NCBI GenBank assembly: GCA_947166385.1
Contig: CAMVEB010000012.1
Location: 1 to 64,000 of the forward strand
From: an uncultured Clostridia bacterium
GTDB taxonomy: Bacteria > Bacillota > Clostridia > Christensenellales > Aristaeellaceae
Reading direction: 5' to 3'
Length of the DNA: 64,000 nt
The translations under genes were made by a program, and so were the position numbers. Every line of letters starts with the position of its first letter. The first letter of the stretch is position 1. Under the pieces are notes generated by a model. It saw only the letters and a program-made list of their open reading frames with translations. It searched no databases and had not been told where the DNA came from. This document shows, in pieces, positions 40,913 through 56,690 of this stretch.

Positions 40913-41011
40913 GGCGCCGGCCTCCTTTGTTCGGTTCTGACAGAGCCCTTTTCATCCTATGTTTTTTCCCTGTTTTTGTCAATCCGGATGATGGCTGCAC
41001 CCCGTTTCTGT

Positions 41012-41041
41012 TTGACATTCTCTTCACCTGTACGATAAAAT
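41012..41041 (+). promoter_or_regulatory. Promoter of the RiPP export operon
   Basis: TTGACA (41012-41017), 18-nt spacer, TAAAAT (41036-41041). The same -10 hexamer occurs at the precursor promoter (51044-51049) and in front of the lipoprotein gene (56538-56543). Confidence 0.75.
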
Positions 41042-41065
41042 GATGGGAGAATCGGAGGCGATATC

Positions 41066-41578
41066 ATGCAGCAGAATAAACTCTACCGCGAAGAGGCGCT
41101 GAAGCGCATTTCCTCTCCCGACCAGCTGAATGGCTATATCCGGACATCACGCTCCAGCGTATGGTTTGTGCTGGGCGCCATTTTGCTGGTGCTTGTCGGC
41201 ATTCTGGTGTGGGGGTTCACCGGTTCTTTTGAAGTTACGATGGAAGCCCGCGGCGGGACCTATGAAGGCAAATCCGCCTGCTTCATTCATCCTTCCGAGC
41301 GGAATGATATTGAGGCCGGCATGCAGGTGCTGTATATGGCGCCCGACAAATCAACCCATACCGGCTTTATCTCTTTCATCGGAGACAGCCCCCTGTCCTA
41401 TGCTGCCGCCTGCGAGCGCTTTTCCATCGGCCTGATGAACCGCATCGGGTTCACTCCCGGTTCAGAGCTGTATGTCGCGGAGTTGATACTGAATGACAAC
41501 CGGAAGAATGAGTTCGCCACCGTGAAAATCATCCGGGATGTCATCAAGCCCAGCGAACTGCTTTTCACTACGAAATAG
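41066..41578 (+). CDS. Short adaptor protein of the RiPP exporter (NHLM secretion-protein-like)
   Basis: 170 residues; CGGAGGCG before ATG 41066. Residues 1-30 are cytoplasmic (KLYREEALKRISSPDQLNGY), one TM at about 32-54 (VWFVLGAILLVLVGILVWGF), then an extracytoplasmic beta-domain (GSFEVTMEARGGTYEGKSAC, IEAGMQVLYMAPDKSTHTGF, ELYVAELILNDNRKN). The start (RISSPDQLN) is what NHLM-type HlyD-like secretion proteins show, but the long coiled-coil hairpin of a full membrane-fusion protein is missing; typical members are more than twice this length. It suits a single-membrane cell. The C39 exporter gene follows 4 nt downstream. Confidence 0.75.
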   Translation: MQQNKLYREEALKRISSPDQLNGYIRTSRSSVWFVLGAILLVLVGILVWGFTGSFEVTMEARGGTYEGKSACFIHPSERNDIEAGMQVLYMAPDKSTHTGFISFIGDSPLSYAAACERFSIGLMNRIGFTPGSELYVAELILNDNRKNEFATVKIIRDVIKPSELLFTTK

Positions 41579-41582
41579 AAAG

Positions 41583-43775
41583 ATGGGAATTCAGAAAGCC
41601 ATGAAGCATACAAAAGTTCGCCAACCCATCTCCAAAGGAGTTGCACATGTCCCGTTTGTCATGCAGCTGGAGGCGCTGGAATGCGGCGCCGCCTCCCTTT
41701 GCATGTGTCTGGCCTACTTTGGCAAGCATATTCCTCTGGAACAGATCCGGAAGGACTGCGGCGTTTCCCGGGACGGATCCAATCTGAAAAGCATCTACCT
41801 GGTTGCTCAGAACTACGGCCTGAAACCCGCCGCTTTCCGATATCAGACGCAAAGCCTGCTCCACAAGGCAACCTTCCCCTGCATCATTCACTGGGACTTC
41901 AACCACTTTATCGTCCTGAACGGGTGGCGCGGAAAGCACGTCTGGATCAATGATCCGGGCCGCGGGCTGGTGAAAATGACGATTGATGAATTTGATCAGC
42001 ATTTTACAGGGATCTGCCTGACCCTGACGCCCAGCGAAGATTTCCGGGCGGAAGGCTCCCCACCCTCCATGTGGGGGTTCACCAAAGAAAGGCTGAAGGG
42101 CACAGGCCCTATGTTTGCCCTGATCATCGCCACCTCCACGATTGCGGCGATCATCAGCATCATCACGCCGGCCATGTCGCGGTTCTATATTGACGGCCTG
42201 CTGGCCACCTTTTCCAACGCAACCCCCTTCTTCCTGTTCTATACCCTGATCGCGCTGCTGCAGCTGGGAGCTATCTGGATCAAGTCTGTCTATCTGCTGC
42301 GCCTGCAGGGCAAAATGGCGATCGTTGCCAACACTTCCTATGTCTGGCATCTCCTGCGGCTGCCGGTGGACTTTTTCGCCCAGCGGATGGCCGGCGACCT
42401 GCTGAAGCGCCAGGAAGCCAACCAGGAAATCGCCTCCACCCTGATCAGCACCTTTGCCCCCCTGGCTCTGGACGCCATCTCGATGCTGTTCAATCTGTTC
42501 GTCATGTTCACCTTCAGCCCCCTGCTGGCGGCAGCAGGGGTTCTGTCCGTCGCAGTCAACCTCTGGCTGTCCCGGGTCATCGCCAAAAAGCGGGTCAATG
42601 TCACCCGCGTGAAAATGACCACCGACGGCAAGCTGAACGGCATGACCATCTCCGGGATCGAGATGATTGAAACCATCAAGTCCGCCGGCGCGGAGAACGG
42701 TTTCTTCACCAAATGGGCAGACTATGAATGCCAGTACAACGATCAGGTGGTTCAGTATAACAAACTGGATCAGTATCTGGGCCAGATTCCCGGGCTGATC
42801 ACCCTGCTGACAGGCAATATCGTGCTGTTTCTGGGCGTCGCCCTGGTCATGCAGGGACGATGGACCGTCGGAATCGTGTCCGCCTTCAACGGCTTCCTGA
42901 CCGCCTTCTCCACCCCCGCAGCCTCTCTGATCGCTGCCGGTCAGAGTTACCAGGAAATGCGCGCCAACATGGAACGCATTCAGGACGTGCTGAAATACCC
43001 GACGGATGTGCCGGAAGGGCCTGTTGACATCGACTCTCTGAAGGATGCGCAGAAGCTTTCCGGCCGGCTGGAAATGAAAAACATCACCTTCGGCTATAAC
43101 CGGCTGCTTCCGCCGCTGCTGCAGGATTTCTCCCTGTCGCTGGAACCCGGCCGCAGCGTCGCCCTGGTAGGTTCCTCCGGCTGCGGCAAATCCACCCTGG
43201 CCCGCCTGATTCTTGGCACCTATGAGCCCTGGGCGGGTGAGATCCTTTACGACGGAAAGCCAAGGAAGGAGATTGACCGCAGCGTTTTCACCGGTTCGGT
43301 CGCTGCCGTGAACCAGGATATCTTTCTCTTCCGGGATACCATTGCCAACAATATCCGCACAGGAGACCGGTCCATCCAGGAATTCGAGGTCATCATGGCC
43401 GCCCGGGATGCGGATATCCATACCTTTATTGCCCAGCGGGAAGGCGGTTACGAAAGCATGGTGTCCGAAGGCGGACGGGACATGTCCGGCGGTCAGCGGC
43501 AACGGATTGAGATTGCCCGGGCCCTGGCCCAGCAGCCGACCCTCCTGATCCTGGATGAAGCGACTTCCGCGCTGGATACCGAGTCGGAACACCGCATCAT
43601 CAAAGCCATTACCGACCAGGGCATCTCTCTGGTCATTATCTCCCACCGCCTCTCCATCATCCGGGACTGCGATGAGATCATCGTGCTGAACCGGGGCCAG
43701 ATTGTAGACCGGGGCCGGCACGAGGAGCTGATGGCCCGGTGTGAGACCTATCAGACCATGATCGCGAGCAACTGA
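41583..43775 (+). CDS. C39-peptidase ABC exporter for the Nif11-type peptides
   Basis: 730 residues from ATG 41583 (ATG 41601 is possible; no strong ribosome site, so coupling to the previous gene is likely). Domain order: C39 peptidase 15-150 with VMQLEALECGAASLCMC (catalytic Cys) and HFIVLNGWRGKHVWINDPGR (His, Asp); six TM helices 165-450; ATPase 495-725 with GSSGCGKSTLARL, AAVNQDIFLFRDTIANNI, SGGQRQRIEIARALA and LLILDEATSALD. The peptidase should cut after the Gly-Gly of the Nif11 leaders encoded at 50.2-51 kb while the core is exported. It is a member of the NHLM peptidase/permease/ATPase group by layout and context. Confidence 0.92.
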   Translation: MGIQKAMKHTKVRQPISKGVAHVPFVMQLEALECGAASLCMCLAYFGKHIPLEQIRKDCGVSRDGSNLKSIYLVAQNYGLKPAAFRYQTQSLLHKATFPCIIHWDFNHFIVLNGWRGKHVWINDPGRGLVKMTIDEFDQHFTGICLTLTPSEDFRAEGSPPSMWGFTKERLKGTGPMFALIIATSTIAAIISIITPAMSRFYIDGLLATFSNATPFFLFYTLIALLQLGAIWIKSVYLLRLQGKMAIVANTSYVWHLLRLPVDFFAQRMAGDLLKRQEANQEIASTLISTFAPLALDAISMLFNLFVMFTFSPLLAAAGVLSVAVNLWLSRVIAKKRVNVTRVKMTTDGKLNGMTISGIEMIETIKSAGAENGFFTKWADYECQYNDQVVQYNKLDQYLGQIPGLITLLTGNIVLFLGVALVMQGRWTVGIVSAFNGFLTAFSTPAASLIAAGQSYQEMRANMERIQDVLKYPTDVPEGPVDIDSLKDAQKLSGRLEMKNITFGYNRLLPPLLQDFSLSLEPGRSVALVGSSGCGKSTLARLILGTYEPWAGEILYDGKPRKEIDRSVFTGSVAAVNQDIFLFRDTIANNIRTGDRSIQEFEVIMAARDADIHTFIAQREGGYESMVSEGGRDMSGGQRQRIEIARALAQQPTLLILDEATSALDTESEHRIIKAITDQGISLVIISHRLSIIRDCDEIIVLNRGQIVDRGRHEELMARCETYQTMIASN

Positions 43776-43795
43776 GGAAAGGAGGGAGCATCCGG

Positions 43796-45973
43796 ATGGA
43801 AACCTGGTTTGGAAAGCAACTGAAAAAGAGACTGCTGACGGATCAGGAAAGGTTTTCCAGCAGCCTTTCCGATATCAGCAGCGTCATCATCGGCAGGAAT
43901 GTCCGGGAGATGAATATGGAATCCGAGCGCCGCATCACCCGGGACGCGGTGGAAGAACTGCTGAAATACTTCAGGCTGGAAGAGCGGGACTGGCCGGAAA
44001 GCCTGACAGAGACAAAAGATATCCTGGATTACTTTCTGTCTCCGGCCGGCATCATGCGCCGGGCCGTTGAGCTGACAGATGACTGGTACAACCATGCCAT
44101 GGGCACCTATCTCGGCTCCACGAAAGACGGGCAGCTGATTGTGCTGATCCCCAAACGGAACCATTATGAATACCTGGATCATTCCACCGGCGAGACAGTA
44201 CGGGTGACCGCCCATACCGCCGCCCATATTGCCAGTGACGCGCTGTGTTTCTACCGGCCGCTCCCTCTTCGCCCTCTGACCGTGAAGGATCTGCTCCTTT
44301 TCACTTTCCGCGAGTTATCCGTCTATGACTATCTGACCGTGATCCTGATCATCCTGGCCGTGATCGGTCTGTCCATGGTCACCCCCACTGTCACTCAATA
44401 CCTGTTTTCCCAGGTGGTATACGCGGACAGCATGTCTCCGCTGATTTCAATCGCGGCGCTCCTGGTCTGCGTCAGTATCGCGACAACGTTCATGTCGATC
44501 TCCCGCGAAATTGTGATCAACAGGATCCTGATCAAGGCCGATGTCTCGATCCGTGCCGCGGTCATGATGCGGCTGATCAGCCTGCCCGCCGCCTTCTTCA
44601 AAAACTATTCCACGGCAGAGCTGGCCAACCGGGCCCAGACGATCAACGCCCTGTGCACCTCCATCTGCAGAGCGCTCTTTTCCTCCGGCATGACCGCGCT
44701 GCTCAGCCTGATCTACATCTTCCAGATTTTCGCGCTCACCCCTGCCCTGGCTGGCCCGGCGCTGCTGGTGATCCTGGTCATGATGATCTTTATTTCCATC
44801 ACGGTATGGCTGCAGATCGGCGTCACGGAAAAGCAGCTGCGCTATACCTCCATGCAGCACGGCATCCTTTACAGCTACATCACCAACATGGAAAAGATCA
44901 AGAGCACGGCCATGGAGAAGCGGGCCTTCTCCAACTGGCTGAATACCTACCGGAAAAGCGCGGAACCCCAGTATCACCCGCCGAAACTGCTGGTGCTGAA
45001 ACCCGTTTTCACCCTGGCCATCACCCTGTTCGGCACGCTGCTGTTCTACCGGGTTGCGCTGGCCAGCCATATCACGCCTTCCCGCTACATGGGCTTCCAG
45101 TCTTCCTTTGCCCTGCTGATGGCGGCCTTCACGCAGCTGTTTGATGTGGTGCAGAATATCGCGATGATCCGCCCGATCCTGAATAACGTAAAGCCGATTC
45201 TGGATGCGGCGCCAGAGCTGGCGGAAAGCAAGAAAAATGTCGACTCGCTGACAGGGGCGATTTCCATCACCGGTGTCTCCTTCACGTATGAAGACTCCTC
45301 GGTTCCGGTTCTGAACAACCTGAACCTGAATATCAATCCGGGCGAATACGTGGCGATTGTCGGCCGAAGCGGCTGCGGCAAGTCCACACTGATGCGTCTT
45401 CTCCTGGGATTTGAAAAACCGCAGACCGGTGTCATCAGCTATGACGGCAACGATATGAAGTCCATGAACCTCCAGTCCCTGCGCCGCCGGATCGGCTGCG
45501 TCATGCAGAACGACAGACTGTTTCCCGGCAACATCCTGTCCAACATCAGCATTTCCGCTCCGGGTCTGACCGAGGAAGACGCCTGGAAAGCGGCGGAACT
45601 GGCCGGCATTGCCGATGATATCCGGGCGATGCCCATGGGCATGCATACGCTGATTTCAGAGGGCGCCAGCTGCATTTCCGGCGGTCAGCGCCAGCGGCTG
45701 ATTATCGCCCGGGCTATCGCCAGCAATCCGAAAATTCTGCTGATGGACGAGGCAACCTCCGCCCTGGACAACCTGACCCAAAAAGCTGTTTCGGAGTCGC
45801 TGGACAGGCTGAACGTGACCCGGATCGTGATCGCTCACCGGCTGTCGACCATCCGCCACTGTGACCGGATCCTGGTGATGGACGGCGGCAGAATCGTGGA
45901 GCAGGGAACCTATGACGAACTGACGAAAAAAAACGGCCTGTTCGCGGATCTGATCCGCTTCCAGCAGGCCTGA
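43796..45973 (+). CDS. Second NHLM-type ABC exporter subunit (peptidase-less)
   Basis: 725 residues; GGAAAGGAGGGAGC before ATG. The first 150 residues are not a C39 peptidase; they form a region with ERRITRDAVEELLKYFRLEE and GQLIVLIPKRNHYEYLDHST, a cyclic-nucleotide-like or degenerate regulatory domain seen in the second protein of NHLM export pairs. Six TM helices lie at about 180-460. ATPase: GRSGCGKSTLMRLLLGFEKP, IGCVMQNDRLFPGNILSNIS, SGGQRQRLIIARAIASN, LLMDEATSALDN, VIAHRLSTIRH. It probably pairs with the C39 protein as a heterodimer. It ends 15 nt before the convergent rSAM gene. Confidence 0.9.
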   Translation: METWFGKQLKKRLLTDQERFSSSLSDISSVIIGRNVREMNMESERRITRDAVEELLKYFRLEERDWPESLTETKDILDYFLSPAGIMRRAVELTDDWYNHAMGTYLGSTKDGQLIVLIPKRNHYEYLDHSTGETVRVTAHTAAHIASDALCFYRPLPLRPLTVKDLLLFTFRELSVYDYLTVILIILAVIGLSMVTPTVTQYLFSQVVYADSMSPLISIAALLVCVSIATTFMSISREIVINRILIKADVSIRAAVMMRLISLPAAFFKNYSTAELANRAQTINALCTSICRALFSSGMTALLSLIYIFQIFALTPALAGPALLVILVMMIFISITVWLQIGVTEKQLRYTSMQHGILYSYITNMEKIKSTAMEKRAFSNWLNTYRKSAEPQYHPPKLLVLKPVFTLAITLFGTLLFYRVALASHITPSRYMGFQSSFALLMAAFTQLFDVVQNIAMIRPILNNVKPILDAAPELAESKKNVDSLTGAISITGVSFTYEDSSVPVLNNLNLNINPGEYVAIVGRSGCGKSTLMRLLLGFEKPQTGVISYDGNDMKSMNLQSLRRRIGCVMQNDRLFPGNILSNISISAPGLTEEDAWKAAELAGIADDIRAMPMGMHTLISEGASCISGGQRQRLIIARAIASNPKILLMDEATSALDNLTQKAVSESLDRLNVTRIVIAHRLSTIRHCDRILVMDGGRIVEQGTYDELTKKNGLFADLIRFQQA

Positions 45974-45988
45974 CAAAGTTCATCCCTT

Positions 45989-47122
45989 TTATTCCTGGTA
46001 AAGAATCTTCTCCATCTTTCCCCGGCGGATCGCCCCGGGGATTTTTTCACGCCAGCCCTGCCCGAAAAACTCGCAGCAGGACGGATCGCACCCGGTAAAC
46101 CCGTCTCCGGACGCCATGGCGTTCATCCGGCATCCCCCGCCGCACTCCGGGGCAGATTCACAGGCAGCGCATTTTGCGTTGCGTTCCAGCTGTTCCCCGA
46201 CCGTGTAGTTGCAGAAGCGCCGGAAAGAAGGAACTCCCATCGCTTCCTCCAGGGACATTTCGAGCAGAGAGGGAGCCCCGGCTACCAGTTCGTCGAAAGA
46301 TGCCAGCCCGGCACAGGGAAGCAGCCGGCCTCCGGCTGTCAGGAAGGGAAAGGACAGCGCGTGTTTGCATACGCTCCGATCCCGGCAGTCCGCGTTCCGG
46401 GGAAACTGCGCCACGGGAACGGACCAGCCATGCCAGTCCGGATCCGCCGCGAAAAAGCCGCCCAACCGCAGCCGCAGCGGATATTCCCCGGCATAGTAGC
46501 CAGCAATGGCATCCAGGAAAGCATCATACATCTCCGGAAAGGCGGGGGGCGAAACTTCCGTCCCTTCCGCTCCGGCCCGGCCCAGGGGAAGCAGCGGCTT
46601 CACCTTGACCGTGGAGCAGCCGTGCGCATACAGTCTGCGCAGAGAGGACCGCAGGAAAGGCAGATTCCCGCGATGCAGCGTCATCAGCGATCCGGTTGTC
46701 AGTCCGGCTTCCCGGCTCAGATCCATGGCCCGGAAGGCCGCTTCCTCCGCTCCGGGCACGTTCCGCAGCCAGTCGTGGCAGCCGCCGTCGCCGTCATAGC
46801 TAACCGTGATTTCCGGCCGGTGTCCGGTCTCTGCAATCCGCCTCAGTACATCCTCCGTCAGCAGGCTGCCGTTGGTCGCGATCTGGAGAATCCCGATTTT
46901 GTGCTCTGCCAGGCATCGCAGCAGGTCCGAAAGATCTGCCCGCAGGAGCGGCTCTCCCCCTGTCAGGCAGACTTCCCGGACGCCTGCTTCCGCCATCCTG
47001 GCGCAAAGCGCTTCAAGGCCGGAGAGCGGCAGTTCCCCGTTCACGTTGCCTACAAAGCAGTGCCGGCACCGATAGTTGCACAGCCCTGTCACAGCCCACT
47101 GAATGATGGGAGCCGGATTCAT
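45989..47122 (-). CDS. Radical SAM/SPASM peptide-modifying enzyme 3
   Basis: 377 residues. The [4Fe-4S]/SAM motif is at the very N-terminus: LCNYRCRHC (Cys15, 19, 22), with GGEPLLRADL and the TNGSLLT strand following. The SPASM end has clustered cysteines: CRDRSVCKHAL, LLPCAGL, NAKCAACESAPECGGGCRMN and CDPSCCEF. Unlike the 478-residue enzyme it lacks an N-terminal peptide-recognition extension. The central segment GCHDWLRNVPGAEEAAFRAM is shared with that enzyme (VHDWMRNVPGAEETVLQAI), so they are paralogues. It overlaps that gene by 4 nt (ATGA-type). The likely substrate is the Nif11 peptides; the bond formed is not known. Confidence 0.88.
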   Translation of the reverse strand: MNPAPIIQWAVTGLCNYRCRHCFVGNVNGELPLSGLEALCARMAEAGVREVCLTGGEPLLRADLSDLLRCLAEHKIGILQIATNGSLLTEDVLRRIAETGHRPEITVSYDGDGGCHDWLRNVPGAEEAAFRAMDLSREAGLTTGSLMTLHRGNLPFLRSSLRRLYAHGCSTVKVKPLLPLGRAGAEGTEVSPPAFPEMYDAFLDAIAGYYAGEYPLRLRLGGFFAADPDWHGWSVPVAQFPRNADCRDRSVCKHALSFPFLTAGGRLLPCAGLASFDELVAGAPSLLEMSLEEAMGVPSFRRFCNYTVGEQLERNAKCAACESAPECGGGCRMNAMASGDGFTGCDPSCCEFFGQGWREKIPGAIRRGKMEKILYQE

Positions 47123-48555
47123 AGCGTTTCCTCCAGCAGTTTTTTCAGCCGGTCAAAATACCCACCCCGGAAAAACCGGCAGAGCACGGGATCCGGTGTC
47201 CGGATGCCTTTCATGGCATCCACCCCGATATAGCTGCCGGCTCTGACCGCCAGCGCCGCGATACCGCAGGCCCGGCAGGAGCCGCCCCGGCACAGCCTGC
47301 CCCAGGGACAGGCCCGGCACTGCGGATTGCAGGCCAGCATCTCTTCCCTGCTCAGCGTCATCATCCGGCTGTATTCCGAATCATTCAGGATGTCCCGCAG
47401 GGAACGGGTATGCACATTGTTGTCCCGGATCAGAAAACCGCCTGACAGGGAAGCGCCTTCAAACGCGTCACAGGGCAGGACCCGCCCGTCGCCGGCTACA
47501 AAAAAGCTTTCTGCGCATTTTCCGCACCAGGCGCTGTCCGGAACCTCCTCGGAAAGCCAGTTGGGATGCTCCCGGCTGACATCCTCCGCCGTCGTTTCCG
47601 GGCTGATTTCCAGCCCGTTGAAAAAACGGATCTTTGTTTTCCATCCCCTGTTTTCCCGCAGAACACGGACCAGTTCCAGCTGGGTTTCCAGGTATTCGTC
47701 GTCCGTCAGGGTATTCTTTCCCTGGTTCATCCATTTGGGCGTCTGTGTCGTACGGATTACAAACAGCGTATCCACGCCCATCTCCGCCATTTTCCGGACG
47801 GTCGGCACCGCGGCCGGCAGCGTTACCGTGTTCAGGTTCATACTCGCCCTCACCGGCAGCCCATGTGTCTTGCACACCGCGATCGCCTGCAGCACGGTCT
47901 CTTCCGCTCCCGGCACGTTGCGCATCCAGTCATGGACGCCCAGTCCGTCAAAGCTGATCATCATCTCCGGCCGCTGGCCTTCCCCTTCCAGCCGCCGCAG
48001 CGTTTCCTCCGTCAGCTTCAGCGCGTTGGTATAGATCCGGGACACCCGCATTCCCTTTGCCGCGATCTCACGCACAATCCGGAAAAAATCCGGATGCAGC
48101 AGGGGTTCGCCCCCGGTCAGCATGACGTTCAGAATCCCGCACTCCGCCATCTCCCCGATCAGCTTGCGGCACTCCTCCCAGGTGAATTCCACGGGCGTAA
48201 CCGCTGTGTCCGAAGCCATAAAGCAGTGGCGGCACCGCGCGTTGCACCGCCCCGTAATCCCCCAGGCCGCGGAAATGATCCGCCGGTTATCATGGTATCG
48301 ATAATCCTGCCAGGGCTTCCAGGGACGCGGTTCCTCCGAGGCCTGCACAATCCCCTTCATTTCCAGCAAATCCAGCGCTTTCTGTTCCGTCTCCGTCAGG
48401 TTCTCCAGGAGCGTCGTCCCGTCACAGCGGCTCAGCAGGGCAAACAGAGGCAGTGAAAGGGGGCGCGGCATGTCGCGGGAGCCCAGCGGATCCAGGTACA
48501 TCAGGTGCCCCCTGTACCCCCGCAGTCCCCAGGGCTCCTTCAGGGTATAATACAT
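47119..48555 (-). CDS. Radical SAM/SPASM peptide-modifying enzyme 2 with N-terminal recognition domain
   Basis: 478 residues. Residues 1-90 resemble a PqqD-like peptide-binding region (SLPLFALLSRCDGTTLLENL, EKALDLLEMKG-like). The core motif is GRCNARCRHC (Cys104, 108, 111), with VMLTGGEPLLHPDFF and RIYTNALKL. SPASM cysteines occur in WCGKCAESFFV, VLPCDAFEGA, ACNPQCRACPWGRLCRGGSC and RACGIA. Such enzymes form thioether or C-C bonds, or otherwise alter peptide side chains. The RRE-like part would grip the leader. The gene lies 15 nt after enzyme 1 and overlaps enzyme 3, so the three are one transcript after the precursor genes. Confidence 0.88.
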   Translation of the reverse strand: MYYTLKEPWGLRGYRGHLMYLDPLGSRDMPRPLSLPLFALLSRCDGTTLLENLTETEQKALDLLEMKGIVQASEEPRPWKPWQDYRYHDNRRIISAAWGITGRCNARCRHCFMASDTAVTPVEFTWEECRKLIGEMAECGILNVMLTGGEPLLHPDFFRIVREIAAKGMRVSRIYTNALKLTEETLRRLEGEGQRPEMMISFDGLGVHDWMRNVPGAEETVLQAIAVCKTHGLPVRASMNLNTVTLPAAVPTVRKMAEMGVDTLFVIRTTQTPKWMNQGKNTLTDDEYLETQLELVRVLRENRGWKTKIRFFNGLEISPETTAEDVSREHPNWLSEEVPDSAWCGKCAESFFVAGDGRVLPCDAFEGASLSGGFLIRDNNVHTRSLRDILNDSEYSRMMTLSREEMLACNPQCRACPWGRLCRGGSCRACGIAALAVRAGSYIGVDAMKGIRTPDPVLCRFFRGGYFDRLKKLLEETL

Positions 48556-48570
48556 CGTAAGTTCCCATCC

Positions 48571-50112: not shown

Positions 50113-50169
50113 CAGATTTTCTGTCTCCCTCCTGCCGCCTCCCCTCCCGGTCTCCGGAAAAACGGGCAG

Positions 50170-50203
50170 CATAAAAGAAACCGCCGCGCAAAAAACGGCG
50201 GTT
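50170..50203 (-). terminator. Terminator between precursor genes and enzyme genes
   Basis: On the minus strand AACCGCCG (50196-50203) pairs with CGGCGGTT (50179-50186) across a 9-nt T-rich loop, followed by TCTTTTAT. It lies 16 nt after the last precursor stop and 60 nt before the first enzyme, so it would let more precursor than enzyme mRNA be made. Confidence 0.8.
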
Positions 50204-50218
50204 CCAATTTTTCATTTC

Positions 50219-50446
50219 TCAGGCAATGCCGGGGCCTAAGCAGCCGACACTGACCGCCGCGCCGCACAGTCCGCCGGCAACGTTTTCCACATCGTCGACG
50301 CTCAGCTGCTGATCCGTCGCCTGGGCCAGGAACTTCTCCGCGGCATCTTTCGGCAGATCGATGCCGAGCTCCTTTGCATAGGCGATCAGTTCCTCCGCGG
50401 TCTTGCATTCACAGGCCTTTGCAAATTGCTCTTTCGTCAGTTGCAT
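50219..50446 (-). CDS. Nif11-type RiPP precursor C
   Basis: 75 residues. Nif11-like leader MQLTKEQFAKACECKTAEEL-IAYAKELGIDLPKDAAEKFL ending DVENVAGG (Gly58-Gly59), the cut site for C39 peptidases. Core LCGAAVSVGCLGPGIA: it shares CGAxxSxxC with the other two but lacks their first Cys and adds a C-terminal LGPGIA extension. AAGGAGA lies 10 nt before ATG. It is the last and most diverged of three precursors transcribed from the promoter at 51044-51072. Confidence 0.88.
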   Translation of the reverse strand: MQLTKEQFAKACECKTAEELIAYAKELGIDLPKDAAEKFLAQATDQQLSVDDVENVAGGLCGAAVSVGCLGPGIA

Positions 50447-50475
50447 AAACTACGGTTCTCCTTCCTTTTCGGTCA

Positions 50476-50700
50476 TCAGCACACCGCGCTCGCATCGGCG
50501 CCGCAAAGATTGGCGAAGCATCCGCCGGCCACATTCTTGATATCTTCCAGGTTCAGCGCGCTGCCGTTCAGCTGGGCGATATACTTCTCCGCGTCTTCTT
50601 TGGTAAGCTCAATCCCCTCGGCCTTCGCCAGGGCCAGCAGCTCATTCGTCGTTTTGCATCCTGCTGCTTTTGCGATCTGTTCTTTTGTAAAGCTCATCAT
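50476..50700 (-). CDS. Nif11-type RiPP precursor B
   Basis: 74 residues (ATG 50700 or the next codon; AAAGGAAG upstream). Leader MMSFTKEQIAKAAGCKTTNE-LLALAKAEGIELTKEDAEKY ends DIKNVAGG (59-60). Core CFANLCGADASAVC: three Cys at core positions 1, 6 and 14 and one Ser, matching precursor A in spacing. Leader and core cannot be told from A in layout, so the pair is a duplication whose core has diverged at the non-Cys positions. Confidence 0.92.
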   Translation of the reverse strand: MMSFTKEQIAKAAGCKTTNELLALAKAEGIELTKEDAEKYIAQLNGSALNLEDIKNVAGGCFANLCGADASAVC

Positions 50701-50763
50701 TTTCTTCCTTTCTCAAGCAAAGTGCCCCCGGAATTCTTCCCTGCGGGACTCAACCAGGCTTCG

Positions 50764-50985
50764 TCAGCAGATGGAAGAAATATTGGCGCCGCAGATGTTG
50801 CCTTCGCAGCCGCCGGCCACCGCGCCGATCTCATCCAGATTCAGGGCACTGCCGGAAAGCTGAGCAAAAAACTTCTCCGCTTCCTCCCGGGCGAGCTCAA
50901 TTCCCTCCGCCTTGGCCAGGGCCAGCAGTTCATCCACACTCTTGCATGCTGCGGCTTTTGCGATCTGTTCTTTTGTGAATTTCAT
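50764..50985 (-). CDS. Nif11-type RiPP precursor A
   Basis: 73 residues from ATG 50985; AAAGGAG 7 nt upstream decides this over the in-frame TTG two codons earlier. Leader MKFTKEQIAKAAACKSVDEL-LALAKAEGIELAREEAEKFF ends EIGAVAGG (58-59). Core CEGNICGANISSIC: Cys1, Cys6, Cys14, Ser11. It is the first gene after the promoter at 51044-51072, so probably the most abundant precursor. The leader is bound by RRE-type domains and cut by the C39 exporter. Modification sites are inferred from the conserved Cys and Ser. Confidence 0.93.
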   Translation of the reverse strand: MKFTKEQIAKAAACKSVDELLALAKAEGIELAREEAEKFFAQLSGSALNLDEIGAVAGGCEGNICGANISSIC

Positions 50986-51043
50986 AAACAATCTCCTTTC
51001 ATATTCCGGCGCTCATCGGCCGTATTCTTTCCTGTGTATTGGT

Positions 51044-51072
51044 ATTTTATCATGTGTTCTGCCGCATTTCAA
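51044..51072 (-). promoter_or_regulatory. Precursor-gene promoter
   Basis: On the minus strand TTGAAA (51067-51072), 17-nt spacer, TAAAAT (51044-51049). The transcript would start near 51037 with a leader of about 50 nt before precursor A. This is the strongest promoter I see in the locus. Confidence 0.8.
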
Positions 51073-51146
51073 CTGTTTTTTTTCGGCTCAGCTGTTATTC
51101 CTGATCCCGATGCCTTTTTCCGCTCTGCGGTTGTATTTTTCGATCC

Positions 51147-52925
51147 TCACAGCTGAAATCCCTCCCGGGGAACCACCTGGGAACGAACCTTCCCGTCCGT
51201 GGAATCCCGCCACATGCAGACATCGGTTTCTCCTTCCCGATAGATGCCCTGCCGCAGCGCGGGAATCAGATCCAGCCGGTAGGTCGTGACCACCGGCCCC
51301 GGATCGCTTCCTTTGACAAAGCGCGCCGTATCCATCTCGAAGCGGAACAGTTCACTCAGCACCGGGTCTGCCATTTTTTCCATGAATTCCTCGAAAAGGG
51401 CGTCCACCATCTGATGAAAACCCATCTGGGCATGCATTTCACTGTAGTCAAAATAAACCCGTCGGAAAAAATCCTCCTGCCGGTAATACAGCTCCTCGAT
51501 CCCGTATTTCCGGATCAGTCCGCAGCATGTCCGGTAGCAGCGTCCCCCCGCCGTGCACAGCAGCAGGAAGACGCTCTCCAGGAAGGGAAACTGATCCCGA
51601 GGTTCGGAATGGAAAGTATAGTACTGGGTAAACAGTTCCGGATAAGCCCGGATCAGTTCCACCCCTTCCTCATCGATGACGGTCCGGTTATAGATGGAAA
51701 GATCCACGTCTTTCTCGTCAAAATACATCCGTTTTTTCACCTTCTCGGTTTCTTCCGTGCGCGGCAGGGGGAAAAACCGATGCAGCTCCACATCCCACGC
51801 GCCTGCCAGGTACAGCTTCTCCGCCAGGGCAATCGTCTGCCGCAGGTCCTCCGTCGTTTCGTCCGGCAAGCCGTAAATCAGGGAAACTGTCGTCAGCATA
51901 TCCGCCTTCCTGATTTCCGCGGCCCGGGTGCACACATCCTCCAGCTTCAGGTTTTTCCGGAGGATTTTCTGCATCCGGGGAGACCCGGTCTCCACCCCCA
52001 GAAAAATATTGGTGCATCCGGCTTCCTTCATCATCCGGATGATTTCCCCATCCAGCACGTCCACCCGGGAAGAGCAGCGCCACCGGTAAGGAGAGCCCCG
52101 CTCAATCAATTTCCGGCAGAATTCCGCGATATGCGACCTCCGGCAGGTAAAATTGTCGTGCTCAATCGAAAAATGCACCGTTTGATACAGTTCATGAAAC
52201 CGGTCCATCTCCGCGATCATCGTATCCACAGGCTTGATCCGGAAATGACGCTCCCAGAAGGAGCTGGTGGAGCAGAACGTGCAGGAAAAAGGGCAGCCTC
52301 TTCCGCCCTCCAGGGCGATATCGCGGATCTCCCCTTTTTCATCCGGCTGCCGGTCAAAGACCGTGTATTGCCCCAGTTCCTCGTCAGTCAGCAGAGGAGC
52401 TGCCGGGTTTTCTACAATTTCCCCGTTCCGCCTGTAAGTGATTCCGGGAATCCCGGCCAGGTCTCCGCCCTCCAGCAACGCGGTTACCAGCGGCAGGAAA
52501 GTCCGCTCGGACTCCCCCCGGCATACCGCGGTAAGAAAAGGAAAGGATTTCAGGCAGATATCCGCGGTCACGCTGGCATGGGGCCCGCCGAAGATAATCC
52601 GGGTCTCCGGGCTCCTTTCGTGCACCCGCCGGGCCAGTTCCAGCACCGTGATAAAGGAATTGCAGATCGTGTAGAATCCCACCAGGCGCGGGGAAAAGGA
52701 AAGCATGTATTCCGTCATCTGCTCCAGCGTTTCCTGGATGTTTTCCCGGTGCGTCAGGATGCCCAGACTGTGCAGGGAATCAAAGTTGATCATTTCCGAC
52801 CGGTAACGGGTGCTGACGATCCGATGCAGAATCCCCTGGCCGATCTGGTAAACCGCGCCCTCGGCGCTCGTAAAATCAAGCCCGCTGATCAGCAGGATAT
52901 CCCGCTGGCTCCTGTTATTATCCAT
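51147..52925 (-). CDS. B12-binding radical SAM enzyme
   Basis: 592 residues. N-terminal cobalamin-binding Rossmann domain 1-160 (LVGFYTICNSFITVLELARR, RIIFGGPHASVTADICLKSF, RGESERTF). Radical SAM motif GCPFSCTFC (Cys211, 215, 218), then TVHFSIEHDNFTCRRSHIAE, CTNIFLGVETGSPRMQKILR and VSLIYGLPDETTEDL, all typical of the methyltransferase-containing B12 class. The C-terminal 180 residues are helical and unassigned. Enzymes of this class methylate unactivated carbons or rearrange rings in peptides, among other reactions. The start overlaps the YcaO gene by 8 nt. Cobalamin would come from the btu system in the same window. Confidence 0.9.
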   Translation of the reverse strand: MDNNRSQRDILLISGLDFTSAEGAVYQIGQGILHRIVSTRYRSEMINFDSLHSLGILTHRENIQETLEQMTEYMLSFSPRLVGFYTICNSFITVLELARRVHERSPETRIIFGGPHASVTADICLKSFPFLTAVCRGESERTFLPLVTALLEGGDLAGIPGITYRRNGEIVENPAAPLLTDEELGQYTVFDRQPDEKGEIRDIALEGGRGCPFSCTFCSTSSFWERHFRIKPVDTMIAEMDRFHELYQTVHFSIEHDNFTCRRSHIAEFCRKLIERGSPYRWRCSSRVDVLDGEIIRMMKEAGCTNIFLGVETGSPRMQKILRKNLKLEDVCTRAAEIRKADMLTTVSLIYGLPDETTEDLRQTIALAEKLYLAGAWDVELHRFFPLPRTEETEKVKKRMYFDEKDVDLSIYNRTVIDEEGVELIRAYPELFTQYYTFHSEPRDQFPFLESVFLLLCTAGGRCYRTCCGLIRKYGIEELYYRQEDFFRRVYFDYSEMHAQMGFHQMVDALFEEFMEKMADPVLSELFRFEMDTARFVKGSDPGPVVTTYRLDLIPALRQGIYREGETDVCMWRDSTDGKVRSQVVPREGFQL

Positions 52926-54717
52926 GGAAGGTTTCCGTCCTTTTTGTCTGTCCGTTTCCTGCCAGCGCTGCCGGGTTTTGCAGCCAGGCTTCCGGCCGCT
53001 GCGCCGGCATACCGCTGATCATCTTCTCCTTGATTTTCAGGTGCAGTGTGTCCACCGCTTCCCGCCGGGCCTGCTTTTTGGCTGCCCGGCGCGGCGTGTT
53101 CTGCTCCCACAGCATGGCCAGCAGCCCCGCGGGATCCTGCCACCGACCGAGGGCGTTCCCCCGGTCCTTCATCACGGCAAGCGCGGGCCGGGCCGTTTCC
53201 GTGCCGAACAAACGCTCCAGCAGCGCATCCCGCCGTTCCGGGGCTATCCCCCTCTTCTCCAGCTCCAGCCACCTCGCCATGCACAGCTCCCGCGCGGTTC
53301 CCGCTTCCGCCAGCAGGCGCTGTGCCTCTCCATCCTCGCCGCGCATGTAGTGCATCAGGCCCCGGACGGCAGGCAGAGACCACTTCTGTTCCAGGCGCTG
53401 TTCCCATCCGCCGATCGCCGTATCCGGGTCCTCCAGCGCGTCCAGCAGATCCATGGCTTCCTCGCCTGTCAGTGGCCGGCGTCCGACTTCATCCATCAGC
53501 TGCTGCAGATGGTACATATCCTTCAGGCGGTGCGTCAGCGCCCTGGGCAGCATCGACATGCCCGGGATATAGATCCGGAAAGCCGGAACCCCCAGGAATC
53601 CGTAGTTCCGGATATAGATGTCCGGCGCCTCCCGCAGGAACAGGTGAATCAGCTGCGCAAGAAATTCCTCGTTGTTCTCCCCGGTTCCCTTATCCCAGGG
53701 GACGAACGCCCAGGAGGGTTCTCCGGCCAGGAAAGAATCCGGCAGCTGGGCAATATCCATCCGGAAGGCTGTGACCAGATTTTTCGAATTGTTCCAGGCC
53801 GTCTCCCCGCCTGTCCACGGAACGGTCATCAGCTCCTTCATTTCGGGATCTCCGGGGTCCGACCCCTGCATCAGCTCCGTCAGGCAGCGTTCCGCCGCCA
53901 CGGAAAACCGGGGATGGGAACCGTACTTGGCCCGGTACCGCTGCCGCTGCTCGTCCACTGCCAGCAGTCCCACCACCGGGAATCCCCGGCCCAGGGACAT
54001 GTCCCGCAGGAACAGCCTCATCCCGCTCCGTTCCTCAATCTGCCGCTTCAGTTCCGCAACCTCCGCCGACAGCGTTTCTTCGGGAAGATCCGGAGGCGTC
54101 AGCCCATCCCGGAGCGTCACGTATTTCACGTACCGCTCCGCAATCTCGCACAACGCCTGACACATGGCCTCCGCGCAGGTGTTGCCGGCAGCCATGCCGT
54201 TCGTTCCCGCCAGCAGGGTGATCAGGATTTCCGGCAGCATCACGGTTTTCCCTTCCCGCACGCTGTAATAGGGCACGAACGGCGTCTCCTCCATCCCGGT
54301 CAGTTCCCGGAAAAAGGGAAGATCCTCCTCCTCCGGCTCGCTGCCCCGCAGCCGGCGGAACTCCGCCCACAGCAGTTCAGCCTCGCGGATGCTCTCCGCG
54401 GGACGCATTTCCTCGTCCGGCGCGCAGATAAATCCCATCGCCGTCCTGGCTTCCGGAGAAAGATCCGCGTAGTCATAGGCAAACCGCGTCTGCAGCCGCT
54501 CCATCGCCTCGCCGAAAGCGCTGGCCCGGCAGTACTTTTCGTCTGTCCCCTTGCCGTTCACGTGCCACCCGTGCCGCGGATCCTCCAGCACCAGACTGTA
54601 CGCCCCGTCCACCACATGCAGCGCTGATTCACGAAACCGGATCCCCAGGTCTGAAAGGATCTGTTCAAACCGCTCCACCGTCAGCTCCGGCGCGCAGTCC
54701 TTGCCCTTGGCATCCAT
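52918..54717 (-). CDS. YcaO-family protein
   Basis: 599 residues from ATG 54717 (AGGAGAAG 8-10 nt upstream). The ATP-binding YcaO core covers residues 25-390: GKGTDEKYCRASAFGEAMER with LQTRFAYDYADLS, NGMAAGNTCAEAMCQALCEI and AERYVKYVTLRDG, and FSVAAERCLTELMQG, which hold the conserved acidic and Arg residues. The C-terminal 180 residues are helical (TPR-like), as in the E. coli YcaO layout. YcaO enzymes activate a backbone amide with ATP to make azolines, amidines or thioamides. There is no fused E1-like/cyclodehydratase partner and no TfuA in the window, so the reaction is open. It overlaps the B12 enzyme downstream. Confidence 0.88.
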   Translation of the reverse strand: MDAKGKDCAPELTVERFEQILSDLGIRFRESALHVVDGAYSLVLEDPRHGWHVNGKGTDEKYCRASAFGEAMERLQTRFAYDYADLSPEARTAMGFICAPDEEMRPAESIREAELLWAEFRRLRGSEPEEEDLPFFRELTGMEETPFVPYYSVREGKTVMLPEILITLLAGTNGMAAGNTCAEAMCQALCEIAERYVKYVTLRDGLTPPDLPEETLSAEVAELKRQIEERSGMRLFLRDMSLGRGFPVVGLLAVDEQRQRYRAKYGSHPRFSVAAERCLTELMQGSDPGDPEMKELMTVPWTGGETAWNNSKNLVTAFRMDIAQLPDSFLAGEPSWAFVPWDKGTGENNEEFLAQLIHLFLREAPDIYIRNYGFLGVPAFRIYIPGMSMLPRALTHRLKDMYHLQQLMDEVGRRPLTGEEAMDLLDALEDPDTAIGGWEQRLEQKWSLPAVRGLMHYMRGEDGEAQRLLAEAGTARELCMARWLELEKRGIAPERRDALLERLFGTETARPALAVMKDRGNALGRWQDPAGLLAMLWEQNTPRRAAKKQARREAVDTLHLKIKEKMISGMPAQRPEAWLQNPAALAGNGQTKRTETFHG

Positions 54718-54730
54718 TCTTCTGCTTCTC

Positions 54731-56065
54731 CTATCTCTCAAATCCGTCCGTATGGGTAATGATCCCCCGGCGGAACAGGGAGAACACCGTCAGCTGAGTC
54801 CCCCAGGCCGGCCCGGAAAGCCTGCCGCAGATTTCCGCCTGGTCAGCCGGCCCTTTCGCCAGGATGCGGCAGACCTCCGTTCCCTTTTCCTCCGGGGAGA
54901 TCCGCACCACCCCCGGGTTTTCCAGCGTGAAGCTTTCCCCGTCGCCGGCATGCAGAAACGGCTGCAGCGCCAGGGGCACGCCGTCTTCCGGCACGGTACG
55001 CATCCCCCCGCAGATTCTTTCGATGATCCCCAGCGCTTCCCCGGCGTTTCCGAAAGGCTCCGGCCCGAGCACCGTTTCCCCGTTGGGCCGTTGGCTGTCC
55101 GCCCGGCACGGCGTTGTCAGACAGACAGTTCTGTCCGCCAGGTTTACAATGAATCCGGACACACAGGCAATCGTTCCCTGATCGGTCAGCAGATCTTCCC
55201 ATCCTTCCGCGTCCGGACTCCTGCCTGCCCGAACCAGCCCAATCCGGCTTTCCTTATACCGGGGCAGAAAGTCCACGTACAGTGTTTCCTCCGGGGAGAA
55301 AGCTTCCGTGCACCGGCGGAAAACCTCCTCCGACAGCAGGGAAAACCGGTGAATCGTTTTCTCTCCTCCCGGATCCATGGCCAGCACCTGCCTGGTCTTT
55401 TCCGGGTTTCGCATCGGGACCGCCGTGGTCATGACAGGCGTCTTCCCGCACAGCTCCCGGAATTTTTCCACAAAAGCCGGGTATTCCGGCGTATCCATCG
55501 GTTCGGTAGCGCTGTACAGAATTGCTTCCCGGACTCCCGGGCCCAGCAGTTCCAGCGCGCCGGAGACCAGCCCGGCAAACAGCTCCATCGTCTCCGGATC
55601 CGCCCGGCTGACCCGGTTCAGGCGTCCCGCGCCGAGTCCGCAGAAAGGGCAGCCCACCGAACACCCGCTGGACAGCTCCAAAGCAAAGGGCAGATGCATC
55701 AGTTCCAGGTTCGTCCCCCGGCCCAGTTCCAGATCGCACCTGCCGACCTGCCGCCGGTGCCAGGCGGCGAACCGCTCATGCCGGAGTTCTCCTGCCCGCT
55801 CCCGAATCCGGCGCCGGTATTCCTTTTTTTCCTCCAGAAAGGCCGCCTGCAAGCCCCGCGCTTCCGGCAGGGGATACCGGGCATAATACCGGGCATCCTC
55901 CCCGCTGATCCGCAGGCCTGCTTCCCGGGCCGCCCTTTCCGGGTCCGCCGCGGCCTTTTCCTGGAAAGCAGAGTCACAGGTCATCAGGTCTATATACCGC
56001 TTCATCTGTGCTGCTTCCCGGATTATTACAGGATCCGGCGTCCCTGTGTTCCAGAATAATCCCAT
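54731..56065 (-). CDS. PoyD-like radical SAM peptide epimerase
   Basis: 444 residues from ATG 56065 (GGGGGAAACC just upstream; ATG 56086, which overlaps the lipoprotein stop, is the alternative). The N-terminus has a Nif11-like helical part (MKRYIDLMTCDSAFQEKAAA, DPERAAREAGLRISGEDARY), then RHERFAAWHRRQVGRCDLEL and the signature FALELSSGCSVGCPFCGLGA (Cys135, 139, 142). An E-L-S-x-G-C-S-V-G-C-x-F-C-G sequence after a WRxRQ-type segment is the hallmark I know from the PoyD/rSAM epimerase group that turns L- to D-residues in proteusin and Nif11 peptides. There is no SPASM domain. C13 of the gene order (after the lipoprotein) is compatible with RiPP use. Confidence 0.82.
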   Translation of the reverse strand: MGLFWNTGTPDPVIIREAAQMKRYIDLMTCDSAFQEKAAADPERAAREAGLRISGEDARYYARYPLPEARGLQAAFLEEKKEYRRRIRERAGELRHERFAAWHRRQVGRCDLELGRGTNLELMHLPFALELSSGCSVGCPFCGLGAGRLNRVSRADPETMELFAGLVSGALELLGPGVREAILYSATEPMDTPEYPAFVEKFRELCGKTPVMTTAVPMRNPEKTRQVLAMDPGGEKTIHRFSLLSEEVFRRCTEAFSPEETLYVDFLPRYKESRIGLVRAGRSPDAEGWEDLLTDQGTIACVSGFIVNLADRTVCLTTPCRADSQRPNGETVLGPEPFGNAGEALGIIERICGGMRTVPEDGVPLALQPFLHAGDGESFTLENPGVVRISPEEKGTEVCRILAKGPADQAEICGRLSGPAWGTQLTVFSLFRRGIITHTDGFER

Positions 56066-56082
56066 GGTTTCCCCCGGTTCCG

Positions 56083-56490
56083 TCATTGGATGCTGAAATG
56101 GAATTCCCCGTTCTCGCATTTCTCGCTGGTTTCCACAATGATGTACAGCGTGCCCTTCACCAGCTCGCCGCCGGCGGAGTCCGCGTCCTCCCCGGCCCTG
56201 ACTGAGAACAGTTCCTTTTTCGTTCCGTCTGTGTCATAGTATACCGTCGCGGCACCATTCCCCAGCTTCGCGGAATACTTGATCTGCCCGCCGGCTTCCC
56301 CGTCCACCTGCATCTTGAAAACTTCGCTGCCGCTGAAAGAGGAGAAAGTCATGTCTGCGTCCTTGGCATGGTTGGTGTGCACAAAGCCAATCGCGCTGTG
56401 GCTGGAGACATACTTGCCGCATCCGGTCAGGCAGAGCAGGCTGAGCACAGCGCAAACAATCAGGAACAGCTTCAGATTCTTCTGCATCAT
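56083..56490 (-). CDS. Small lipoprotein at the head of the RiPP enzyme operon
   Basis: 135 residues; AAGGGGGAC before ATG 56490. Signal MMQKNLKLFLIVCAVLSLLC with lipobox LTGC (Cys24). The mature domain is beta-rich (DADMTFSSFSGSEVFKMQVD, GQIKYSAKLGNGAATVYYDT, GTLYIIVETSEKCENGEFHF), resembling a C2- or immunoglobulin-like fold. It overlaps or abuts the epimerase gene and so belongs to the locus. Self-protection (immunity) against the product, or retention of the product at the membrane, would fit a lipoprotein here, but no family supports that directly. Confidence 0.7.
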   Translation of the reverse strand: MMQKNLKLFLIVCAVLSLLCLTGCGKYVSSHSAIGFVHTNHAKDADMTFSSFSGSEVFKMQVDGEAGGQIKYSAKLGNGAATVYYDTDGTKKELFSVRAGEDADSAGGELVKGTLYIIVETSEKCENGEFHFSIQ

Positions 56491-56537
56491 CGGGTCCCCC
56501 TTCTGTATTCGTTTTCAACAGTCTGCTGAGATGATGT

Positions 56538-56566
56538 ATTTTAACACGGCGGAAATCAAAATGAAA
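56538..56566 (-). promoter_or_regulatory. Weak promoter of the lipoprotein-epimerase-YcaO-B12 operon
   Basis: On the minus strand TTTCAT (56561-56566), 17-nt spacer, TAAAAT (56538-56543). The -10 equals that of the other two RiPP promoters; the -35 is poor. Confidence 0.45.
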
Positions 56567-56613
56567 GGCTTCCGGTATAGAAATACAGCAGGGAAACAAT
56601 CCGCAACAACAGA

Positions 56614-56642
56614 TTGAAAAAAAAACTCTCCGGTGTTACAAT
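56614..56642 (+). promoter_or_regulatory. Promoter of the esterase gene
   Basis: TTGAAA (56614-56619), 17-nt spacer, TACAAT (56637-56642). Divergent from the RiPP operon. Confidence 0.7.
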
Positions 56643-56690
56643 AAACTGCATTTTTATGCATATACAGTCCGCAACCGGAGGTGATATTCC

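Follow-up and report, generated by a model that had tools for sequence, protein, structure and literature searches.

What kind of peptide could be built where three SPASM-type radical S-adenosylmethionine (SAM) enzymes, a B12-binding radical SAM enzyme, a PoyD-like epimerase and a YcaO protein are encoded beside short double-glycine precursors? This question is raised by a locus at positions 41066-56490 of a 64,000-nucleotide stretch of DNA (the window) from an uncultured Clostridia bacterium of the family Aristaeellaceae (assembly GCA_947166385.1, 4.33 Mb in 96 contigs; contig CAMVEB010000012.1, here labelled G000:C12). In this locus lie genes for three short double-glycine precursors, a YcaO, an NHLM/C39 exporter, a lipoprotein and five radical SAM proteins, of which three are SPASM enzymes, one binds B12 and one is PoyD-like; it is a real accessory gene cluster for ribosomally synthesized and post-translationally modified peptides (RiPPs). 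The sequences themselves show the genes, their conservation as a set in two genomes and the integrity of the catalytic motifs. We put at roughly 0.6 the probability of the pathway proposed below, in which three Nif11-type precursors of this accessory cluster are modified, cut after Gly-Gly and secreted as peptides of 14-16 residues.

The plus strand carries a short HlyD-like gene followed by two NHLM ATP-binding cassette (ABC) exporter genes. The order of transcription on the minus strand is lipoprotein, PoyD-like epimerase, YcaO, B12 radical SAM enzyme, precursors A, B and C, and the SPASM enzymes of 533, 478 and 377 amino acids (aa). All the parts named in an initial annotation of this DNA were found where it had placed them, the CxxxCxxC motif that it ascribed to the radical SAM proteins was seen in all five, and its reading of the locus as a RiPP cluster with such an enzyme set is supported. 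The lipoprotein gene (56083-56490), which lay within its range without being described, also belongs to the unit.

Precursors and export genes

The three precursor genes lie together on the minus strand and align with their orthologues in a second uncultured Clostridia genome (G562, locus L003). Precursor A (50764-50985) has the core CEGNICGANISSIC, precursor B (50476-50697, scanned as 50476-50700) the core CFANLCGADASAVC, and precursor C (50219-50446) the core LCGAAVSVGCLGPGIA; the corresponding cores in L003 are GMSNVCASNVCCPNTPAVC, CLTNLCGADASAIC and LCGAAISIACLGPGVA. As initially annotated, the precursors end in Gly-Gly followed by cores of 14, 14 and 16 residues, and this arrangement next to maturase genes is that of Nif11-type precursors. 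The Nif11 model TIGR03798 matched A, B and C with 22.8 bits (E-value 8.3e-5), 28.7 bits (1.1e-6) and 26.9 bits (4.4e-6), respectively, all under the curated cut-off of 32.3, which was exceeded by precursors of the related loci described below (46.3 bits in G042:C4, region L068; 36.0 bits in G562:C8, region L059, for the one of two that was scored). The motif CGAxxSxxC was present in five of the six precursor cores from the window and L003, the exception being L003 A. Every core contains two to four cysteines, and a single Phe is the only aromatic residue among them, with no Tyr. In both genomes, type A/B and type C have different leaders and different cores. No further precursor of this kind was found at an E-value of 0.01, each genome (G000 and G562) giving just three matches.

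The two exporter genes form the pair expected of NHLM systems. Exporter 1 (41583-43775, plus strand) matched TIGR03796 with 806 bits against a cut-off of 853 (E-value 2.1e-242) and contains a C39 leader peptidase domain (Peptidase_C39, 7.1e-33), in which Cys, His and Asp motifs were detected, bearing out the C39-peptidase exporter that had been annotated. Exporter 2 (43796-45973, plus strand) matched TIGR03797 with 674 bits against 709 (2.4e-202). Both thus fall slightly below their equivalog cut-offs, and they are 84% and 76% identical to their L003 counterparts. The short HlyD-like export partner (41066-41578, plus strand, 170 aa) matched TIGR03794 over residues 14-63 only (1.9e-6) and had no match in Pfam. 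Because its counterparts in G562 and G042 are likewise short (178 and 158 aa), the short form appears to be conserved, and its interpretation as an isolated wreck was rejected for the same reason; a longer form of 313 aa occurs at G562:C8.

Conservation and related loci

When genome contigs were scanned with the B12 enzyme, four loci were obtained. In L003 of G562, the gene set recurs in identical order at 65-84% identity, with 64% for the HlyD-like protein and 70% for the lipoprotein at its ends. The G562 PoyD gene is split over two contigs (residues 171-462 on L003 and 6-170 on L039), and L039 carries the lipoprotein orthologue beside the PoyD fragment; because the gene is divided between them, L003 and L039 presumably adjoin. 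The dN/dS ratios calculated with our own script for 12 genes between the window and G562 (the HlyD stub omitted, PoyD represented by 292 codons) ranged from 0.055 to 0.302, and from 0.055 to 0.157 for the precursors, although dS values of 0.91-2.06 are near saturation and make these ratios rough. The gene set thus appears to be under purifying selection, and its recurrence in the same order in a second genome, together with these ratios, argues that it is more than a chance assembly.

The distribution of the cluster is narrow. Among 45 genomes of the same genus (13 of them with completeness of 90% or more and contamination of 5% or less), the B12 enzyme was found in its own genome only, with no match in the other 44. 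Matches were obtained in two of 200 genomes of the family and two of 396 of the order, the second match in each being a partial one with about 30% identity. G562 itself was the only one of 307 genomes of its own family to match; the window genome gave no match among these 307, which suggests, short of proof, that the two genomes belong to different families. The PoyD-like protein matched one of the 396 genomes of the order, its own. Viral contigs gave no relative, and plasmids gave partial matches only (best identity, 32.2%). Regions with other B12 radical SAM matches (L002, L004, L005, L006 and L041) were rejected as kin, with no precursor, YcaO or PoyD match adjoining; the 533-aa enzyme had a radical SAM match in L040, a longer stretch around L002 (30% over 222 residues), and ABC-transporter matches occur in L041.

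Genes resembling Escherichia coli YcaO occur in four of the 396 genomes of the order, the window genome included, and a second one is present in G562. The five other genes of this type lie in four loci, all of which were inspected, and SPASM-type genes adjoin YcaO in three of the four. One of them is G042:C4 (L068, 4178-18740), in a genome of the same family as the window genome: it has four SPASM-type genes (two named by profile and two by similarity and Cys pattern), two YcaO genes, a short HlyD gene, NHLM-like exporters 50% and 43% identical to those of the window, and a Cys-rich Nif11 precursor with the core GCSSSSDPNCTRVCGECCGTFLGTYIGKQ; no PoyD or B12-enzyme match was found in the 20 kb read. 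G562:C8 (L059, 6520-10300; L069, 2006-7689) is a second RiPP-like locus in the genome that carries the twin of the window cluster, with two Gly-Gly precursors whose cores contain Trp, a SPASM-type gene, a YcaO, and NHLM-like exporter genes about 7.6 kb off. In G066:C28 (L065, 1516-4952), from a genome of the same genus, a YcaO gene adjoins a SPASM-type radical SAM gene, and no clear Nif11 precursor was found; positions 1516-1683 there could encode a very short precursor with the sequence CACLCALGG. The fourth, a 7.5-kb contig of G510, has a YcaO gene and short Gly-Gly open reading frames (ORFs) recognized by pattern only, with no SPASM match on the contig. To judge from these sequences, an E. 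coli-like YcaO and SPASM enzymes, together with Nif11 precursors and an NHLM exporter, characterize a small group of loci for which no description was found, and the window locus looks like an elaborated version of its other members.

SPASM enzymes and their possible substrates

The three SPASM enzymes are encoded in tandem on the minus strand. The 377-aa enzyme (45989-47122; PF04055, 1.2e-18) is 66% identical to its L003 orthologue, and the 478-aa enzyme (47119-48555; PF04055, 1.1e-20; PF13186, 5.3e-6) is 74% identical to its orthologue and 33% identical over its length to a G042 protein. The latter has an N-terminal extension of about 90 aa that resembles a RiPP recognition element by eye only. 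The 533-aa enzyme (48571-50172; 74% in L003) matched CefB (NF038107, 4.8e-46) and PapB (NF047865, 3.5e-36), both far below equivalog cut-offs; for the ranthipeptide maturase PapB, it reached 125 bits of the required 340. Each of the three has the cysteine patterns CX(n)GX4C and CX2CX5CX3-4C in both genomes, the 478-aa enzyme with a CX4C variant. At an E-value of 0.01, the Pfam SPASM model matched the 478-aa enzyme only. The NCBIfam matches considered were the best 25 of 65-76 families per protein; among the matches listed, the SPASM domain model TIGR04085 was found for the 533-aa enzyme, and the top scores of the 377- and 478-aa enzymes were to haem-pathway families, with pyrroloquinoline quinone (PQQ) and mycofactocin types also present. 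The structure nearest to the 533-aa enzyme is 5wgg, titled 'Radical SAM domain protein', which we take to be the ranthipeptide maturase CteB. These resemblances suggest that the 533-aa enzyme may form thioethers. A structure model of this enzyme was unusable (mean predicted local distance difference test [pLDDT] score of 40.9, from a two-sequence alignment).

In a SPASM tree that left out one G042 gene (L068, 4178-5605), the 377- and 478-aa enzymes were, after their orthologues, nearest by path to a G042 enzyme, with the deeper forks weak or open, and the 533-aa enzyme sat apart from this pair. This separation and the different best families of the 533-aa enzyme (among the matches listed) bear on whether the enzymes all act on one peptide. 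They could instead be divided by substrate, types A/B and C each passing through a different subset so that no peptide receives every modification, and the consistent differences in leader and core between the two types in both genomes fit such a division. Both types nevertheless share CGAxxSxxC, and neither genome gave a further precursor of this type. We regard a division of this kind as quite possible, while leaning against it.

The YcaO protein

The YcaO gene (52918-54717, minus strand, with the start placed at 54717) encodes a putative ATP-dependent backbone-activating enzyme, 74% identical in L003, which matched the profile of E. coli YcaO (NF040716, 2.7e-61; 208 bits, below the equivalog cut-off of 700) and whose best match in the PDB is E. 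coli YcaO itself (4q84, residues 12-442, 2.8e-45). In a three-row alignment, 176 of 532 aligned positions were identical between the two proteins. The ATP-site residues are retained except at S16, where the window protein has T and that of L003 has S; these residues and the near whole-length alignment are features of the E. coli YcaO type. A structure model was unusable (mean pLDDT, 38.8; two-sequence alignment); only residues about 461-510 reached pLDDT values of 75-83, as helical repeats that would be compatible with, without proving, the tetratricopeptide repeat domain of E. coli YcaO.

In E. coli, which has no TfuA, YcaO thioamidates uL16, and it used sulfide in vitro (Rice et al., PMC13063428). 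The same source places a few members of the E. coli YcaO group that are not highly acidic in apparent RiPP loci. The calculated isoelectric points (pI) are 4.38 for E. coli YcaO, 5.21 for the window protein and 5.48 for that of L003. No TfuA (PF07812) was found in the G000 and G562 genomes, with Methanosarcina acetivorans serving as the positive control, so the pairing of TfuA with YcaO that marks thioamitide loci is absent. Because the E. coli enzyme thioamidates without TfuA, its less acidic kin occur in RiPP loci, the window protein has an intermediate pI and no TfuA was found, a thioamide is the favored product, at slightly less than even odds.

The B12 enzyme and the PoyD-like epimerase

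The B12-binding radical SAM enzyme (51147-52925, minus strand; 79% identical in L003) contains B12-binding and radical SAM domains, the former with 33.8 bits against a threshold of 32.1, together with CxxxCxxC, as befits a B12-dependent radical SAM protein. ApyD was the nearest family among the matches listed (NF050148, 2.6e-83; 280 bits over residues 68-448, below the cut-off of 750). The only PADLOC match, PDC-M51A with 62 bits, was taken as probably generic. ApyD methylates the C-beta of Tyr, and the crosslink in that pathway is made by a P450 (PMC10635010); on these grounds, the B12 enzyme was rejected as a Tyr crosslinker.

The PoyD-like gene (54731-56086, minus strand) probably starts at 56086, where its ATGA overlaps the lipoprotein stop. 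The longer ORF of 462 aa matched TIGR04517 (4.2e-86; 289.6 bits over nearly the full length, below the curated cut-off of 325). In an alignment of the window protein with four plasmid homologues, the cysteines of CxxxCxxC (C153, C157 and C160) were common to all, and C319, in the sequence TIACVSGF (C308 counted from the ATGA start), was the sole further Cys shared across the rows. In PoyD homologues, one Cys (C372) is strictly conserved, and its mutant gave no epimerization in vivo and one event in vitro (PMC8326336). We equate C319 with this residue, PoyD itself lying outside the alignment, so the correspondence is a putative one. The window epimerase also matched 47 plasmid records.

Comparison with known systems

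The initial annotation held that no described peptide combines all of these enzymes, and this was too strong. The nostatin A cluster, the nearest system found, pairs a thiazoline/oxazoline-forming cyclodehydratase, a type of enzyme for which the paper's introduction gives the name YcaO, with a PoyD-like epimerase and a radical SAM C-methyltransferase that depends on cobalamin. Its product, which contains a thioether in the form of a sactionine bridge, also has azoles, a D-residue and C-methylation (PMC11583998). It differs from the window locus, as described there, in its NHLP leader, 30-residue core, LanM-like enzyme, oxidase and azoles; the bridge is proposed to be spontaneous, and the word SPASM is absent from PMC11583998. 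For the full set, in which these enzymes are joined by three SPASM enzymes and the YcaO is of the E. coli-like type, acting on cores of 14-16 residues, no description was found in the open-access literature, which covers few subscription papers.

Other systems share fewer parts. The Itf cluster of Bacteroides has a YcaO, a SPASM-type radical SAM enzyme and a C39 exporter, whereas its YcaO forms an amidine and bears an Fe-S domain, and the parts listed in PMC11002830 include no epimerase or B12 enzyme. The spliceotide cluster plp resembles the window locus in its NHLP/Nif11 leaders and in having both a SPASM enzyme and a PoyD-like epimerase, but PlpX removes tyramine from Xaa-Tyr-Gly (PMC11002830), and the window cores have no Tyr. 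YcaO occurs together with a radical SAM epimerase in the carnazolamide pathway (PMC10676384), and a survey of Bacteroidales reported loci with radical SAM and YcaO genes (PMC10352776). Rhizobial plasmids (Sinorhizobium meliloti, L047; Mesorhizobium huakuii, L048) carry genes annotated as Nif11 precursors, together with one for a PoyD-like epimerase and one annotated as a radical SAM RiPP maturation protein/C-methyltransferase, but no annotated YcaO or SPASM gene in stretches of about 17 kb, for which the gene table is incomplete. The sibling locus G042:C4 has a Cys-rich Nif11 precursor, a short HlyD, NHLM exporters, SPASM enzymes of the same type and E. coli-like YcaOs in common with the window and differs in its four SPASM enzymes, two YcaOs and core. 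E. coli YcaO, alignable over 532 positions with most ATP residues kept in the window protein, differs in being far more acidic and in lying outside any RiPP locus (PMC13063428). The parts are known; what looks new is their combination, and so does the group of sibling loci.

Proposed biosynthesis and alternatives

In the pathway that we propose, the SPASM enzymes would rely at least in part on leader binding and act within CGAxxSxxC, joining a Cys sulfur (or carbon) to backbone or side-chain carbons. The E. coli-like YcaO would activate one backbone amide with ATP, most likely giving a thioamide; the PoyD-like enzyme would invert one or more residues with C319 as the hydrogen donor; and the ApyD-like B12 enzyme would methylate an unactivated carbon. 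Once modified in the cell, the precursors would be cut after Gly-Gly by the C39 domain of the NHLM exporter and the peptides secreted, and the lipoprotein may shield the producer. The most ambitious version, a new Clostridia RiPP group with an E. coli YcaO-related enzyme and tandem SPASM enzymes, in which a single Nif11 peptide of 14-16 residues carries a thioamide, thioether or C-C crosslinks, a C-methyl group and a D-residue, and of which this locus is the most elaborate member, is tentative, with the odds clearly against its holding in full.

Several observations weigh against the proposed pathway. Every modifying reaction is assigned by distant homology, since the modifying enzymes all stay below the equivalog and subfamily cut-offs among the matches listed, and the full gene set was found in two copies only, in the window and G562. 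The known target of ApyD is Tyr, yet the cores offer no aromatic residue besides one Phe. The pI of 5.2 of the window YcaO is intermediate, and the RiPP-type data set in PMC13063428 consists of neutral or basic members. In an eight-row alignment, the window YcaO was no closer to E. coli YcaO (27%) than to other RiPP-type YcaOs (24-27%), and the corresponding tree paired E. coli YcaO with the G066 protein (support, 93/92), leaving the window protein on a long branch elsewhere with its placement open. A C-terminal CxxCxxCx(4-6)C pattern occurs in four of the five related YcaOs and not in the window, L003 or E. coli proteins; the C-terminus of the G562:C8 YcaO carries CYDCASCDYAGSAC, and the G510 YcaO contains a CFPSCNEC stretch.

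This pattern bears on the nucleophile used by the YcaO. Within the same kind of RiPP cluster, the enzyme could use a nitrogen nucleophile and form a backbone amidine, as does ItfB, which adjoins the SPASM enzyme ItfD in a characterized precedent that unites YcaO, SPASM enzyme and C39 exporter (PMC11002830). The Cys motif of the four related YcaOs is reminiscent of the Fe-S domain of ItfB, with ItfB compared by description, but its absence from the window and L003 proteins, as from E. coli YcaO, makes an amidine unlikely at this locus. Rather improbable is a cyclodehydratase that would form a thiazoline at a core Cys: although the two to four cysteines in every core would supply substrates and nostatin A joins azoles made by a cyclodehydratase with a PoyD-like enzyme (PMC11583998), the annotated genes include no E1-like/ocin-ThiF partner and no dehydrogenase, and the score of the window protein against the E. 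coli YcaO profile (208 bits) is far above that against SagD (50 bits). The haem-pathway, PQQ and mycofactocin scores of the 377- and 478-aa enzymes and the potential of short Cys-rich cores to bind metal might suggest that the product, instead of being antibacterial, serves as a signal or metallophore or is cofactor-like; this is improbable given a bacteriocin-type NHLM exporter with a leader peptidase, a lipoprotein that travels with the locus, and scores that are low over 65-66 families and hence indicate no specific cofactor family.

Genomic setting

The candidate self-protection protein is a 135-aa lipoprotein (56083-56490, minus strand) with an LTGC lipobox recognized by eye; its G562 orthologue, 70% identical, lies beside the PoyD N-terminus, and it had no match in NCBIfam, Pfam, PHROG or PADLOC, nor in four same-genus regions (L035-L038). 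Scans for regulatory sites gave a promoter-like site 5' of the export genes (TTGACA-18-TAAAAT, 41012-41041, plus strand; 11 of 12 consensus matches) and another 5' of precursor A (TTGAAA-17-TAAAAT, 51044-51072, minus strand; 10 of 12), both of them consensus matches only in a scan with 10 such sites against 5.0 (standard deviation, 2.7) in shuffled sequences. A terminator- or attenuator-like hairpin with an 11-pair stem and a T-rich tail was found by pattern scan between the precursors (3' of C) and the SPASM genes (50177-50205, minus strand); sites of this type were no commoner than in shuffles (14 versus 13.7).

On either side of the cluster, the window has a CapA-like gene (by eye) and esterase and PotA/PotB-like genes, while in G562 one side is occupied by genes for a CPBP-type protease and a flavodoxin-like protein and the opposite side by LrgAB-like genes, all named by eye. 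No flanking gene common to both loci was seen. Because the flanking genes differ, the HlyD stub and the lipoprotein are the end genes of the unit, in agreement with the limits proposed initially. The CapA-like (39821-40912) and esterase (56691-58283) genes are neighbors in four same-genus regions, divergent in L035 and on one strand in L036-L038, and this difference in orientation makes the site look prone to rearrangement. In L035, the same divergent arrangement encloses a gap of 901 bp, compared with 15.8 kb in the window, occupied by another small gene (by eye) with no match to the cluster; around the esterase and CapA genes of L036-L038, no cluster match other than to other ABC ATPases was found. 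The PotA-like ATPase (58303-59883, 526 aa) has a C-terminal extension past the PotA profile, and all 526 residues align in L038. The locus has a GC content of 59.2%, and its flanks have 55.4% and 57.1%. No tRNA was detected in the window, and no exact direct repeats of at least 10 or inverted repeats of at least 9 nucleotides were found between 40913-41066 and 56491-56690; insertion by a tRNA-directed or repeat-flanked element was therefore rejected.

Significance

The locus is compact and testable, and several backbone and side-chain chemistries may converge in it on a peptide of 14-16 residues, with the conserved nine-residue motif CGAxxSxxC as the obvious target of modification. It would also help to answer how a YcaO without a partner protein chooses among sulfur, nitrogen and a Cys thiol as nucleophile. 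Together with the sibling loci available for comparison, it indicates that relatives of E. coli YcaO, an enzyme whose function was assigned only recently, enter RiPP biosynthesis in Clostridia.

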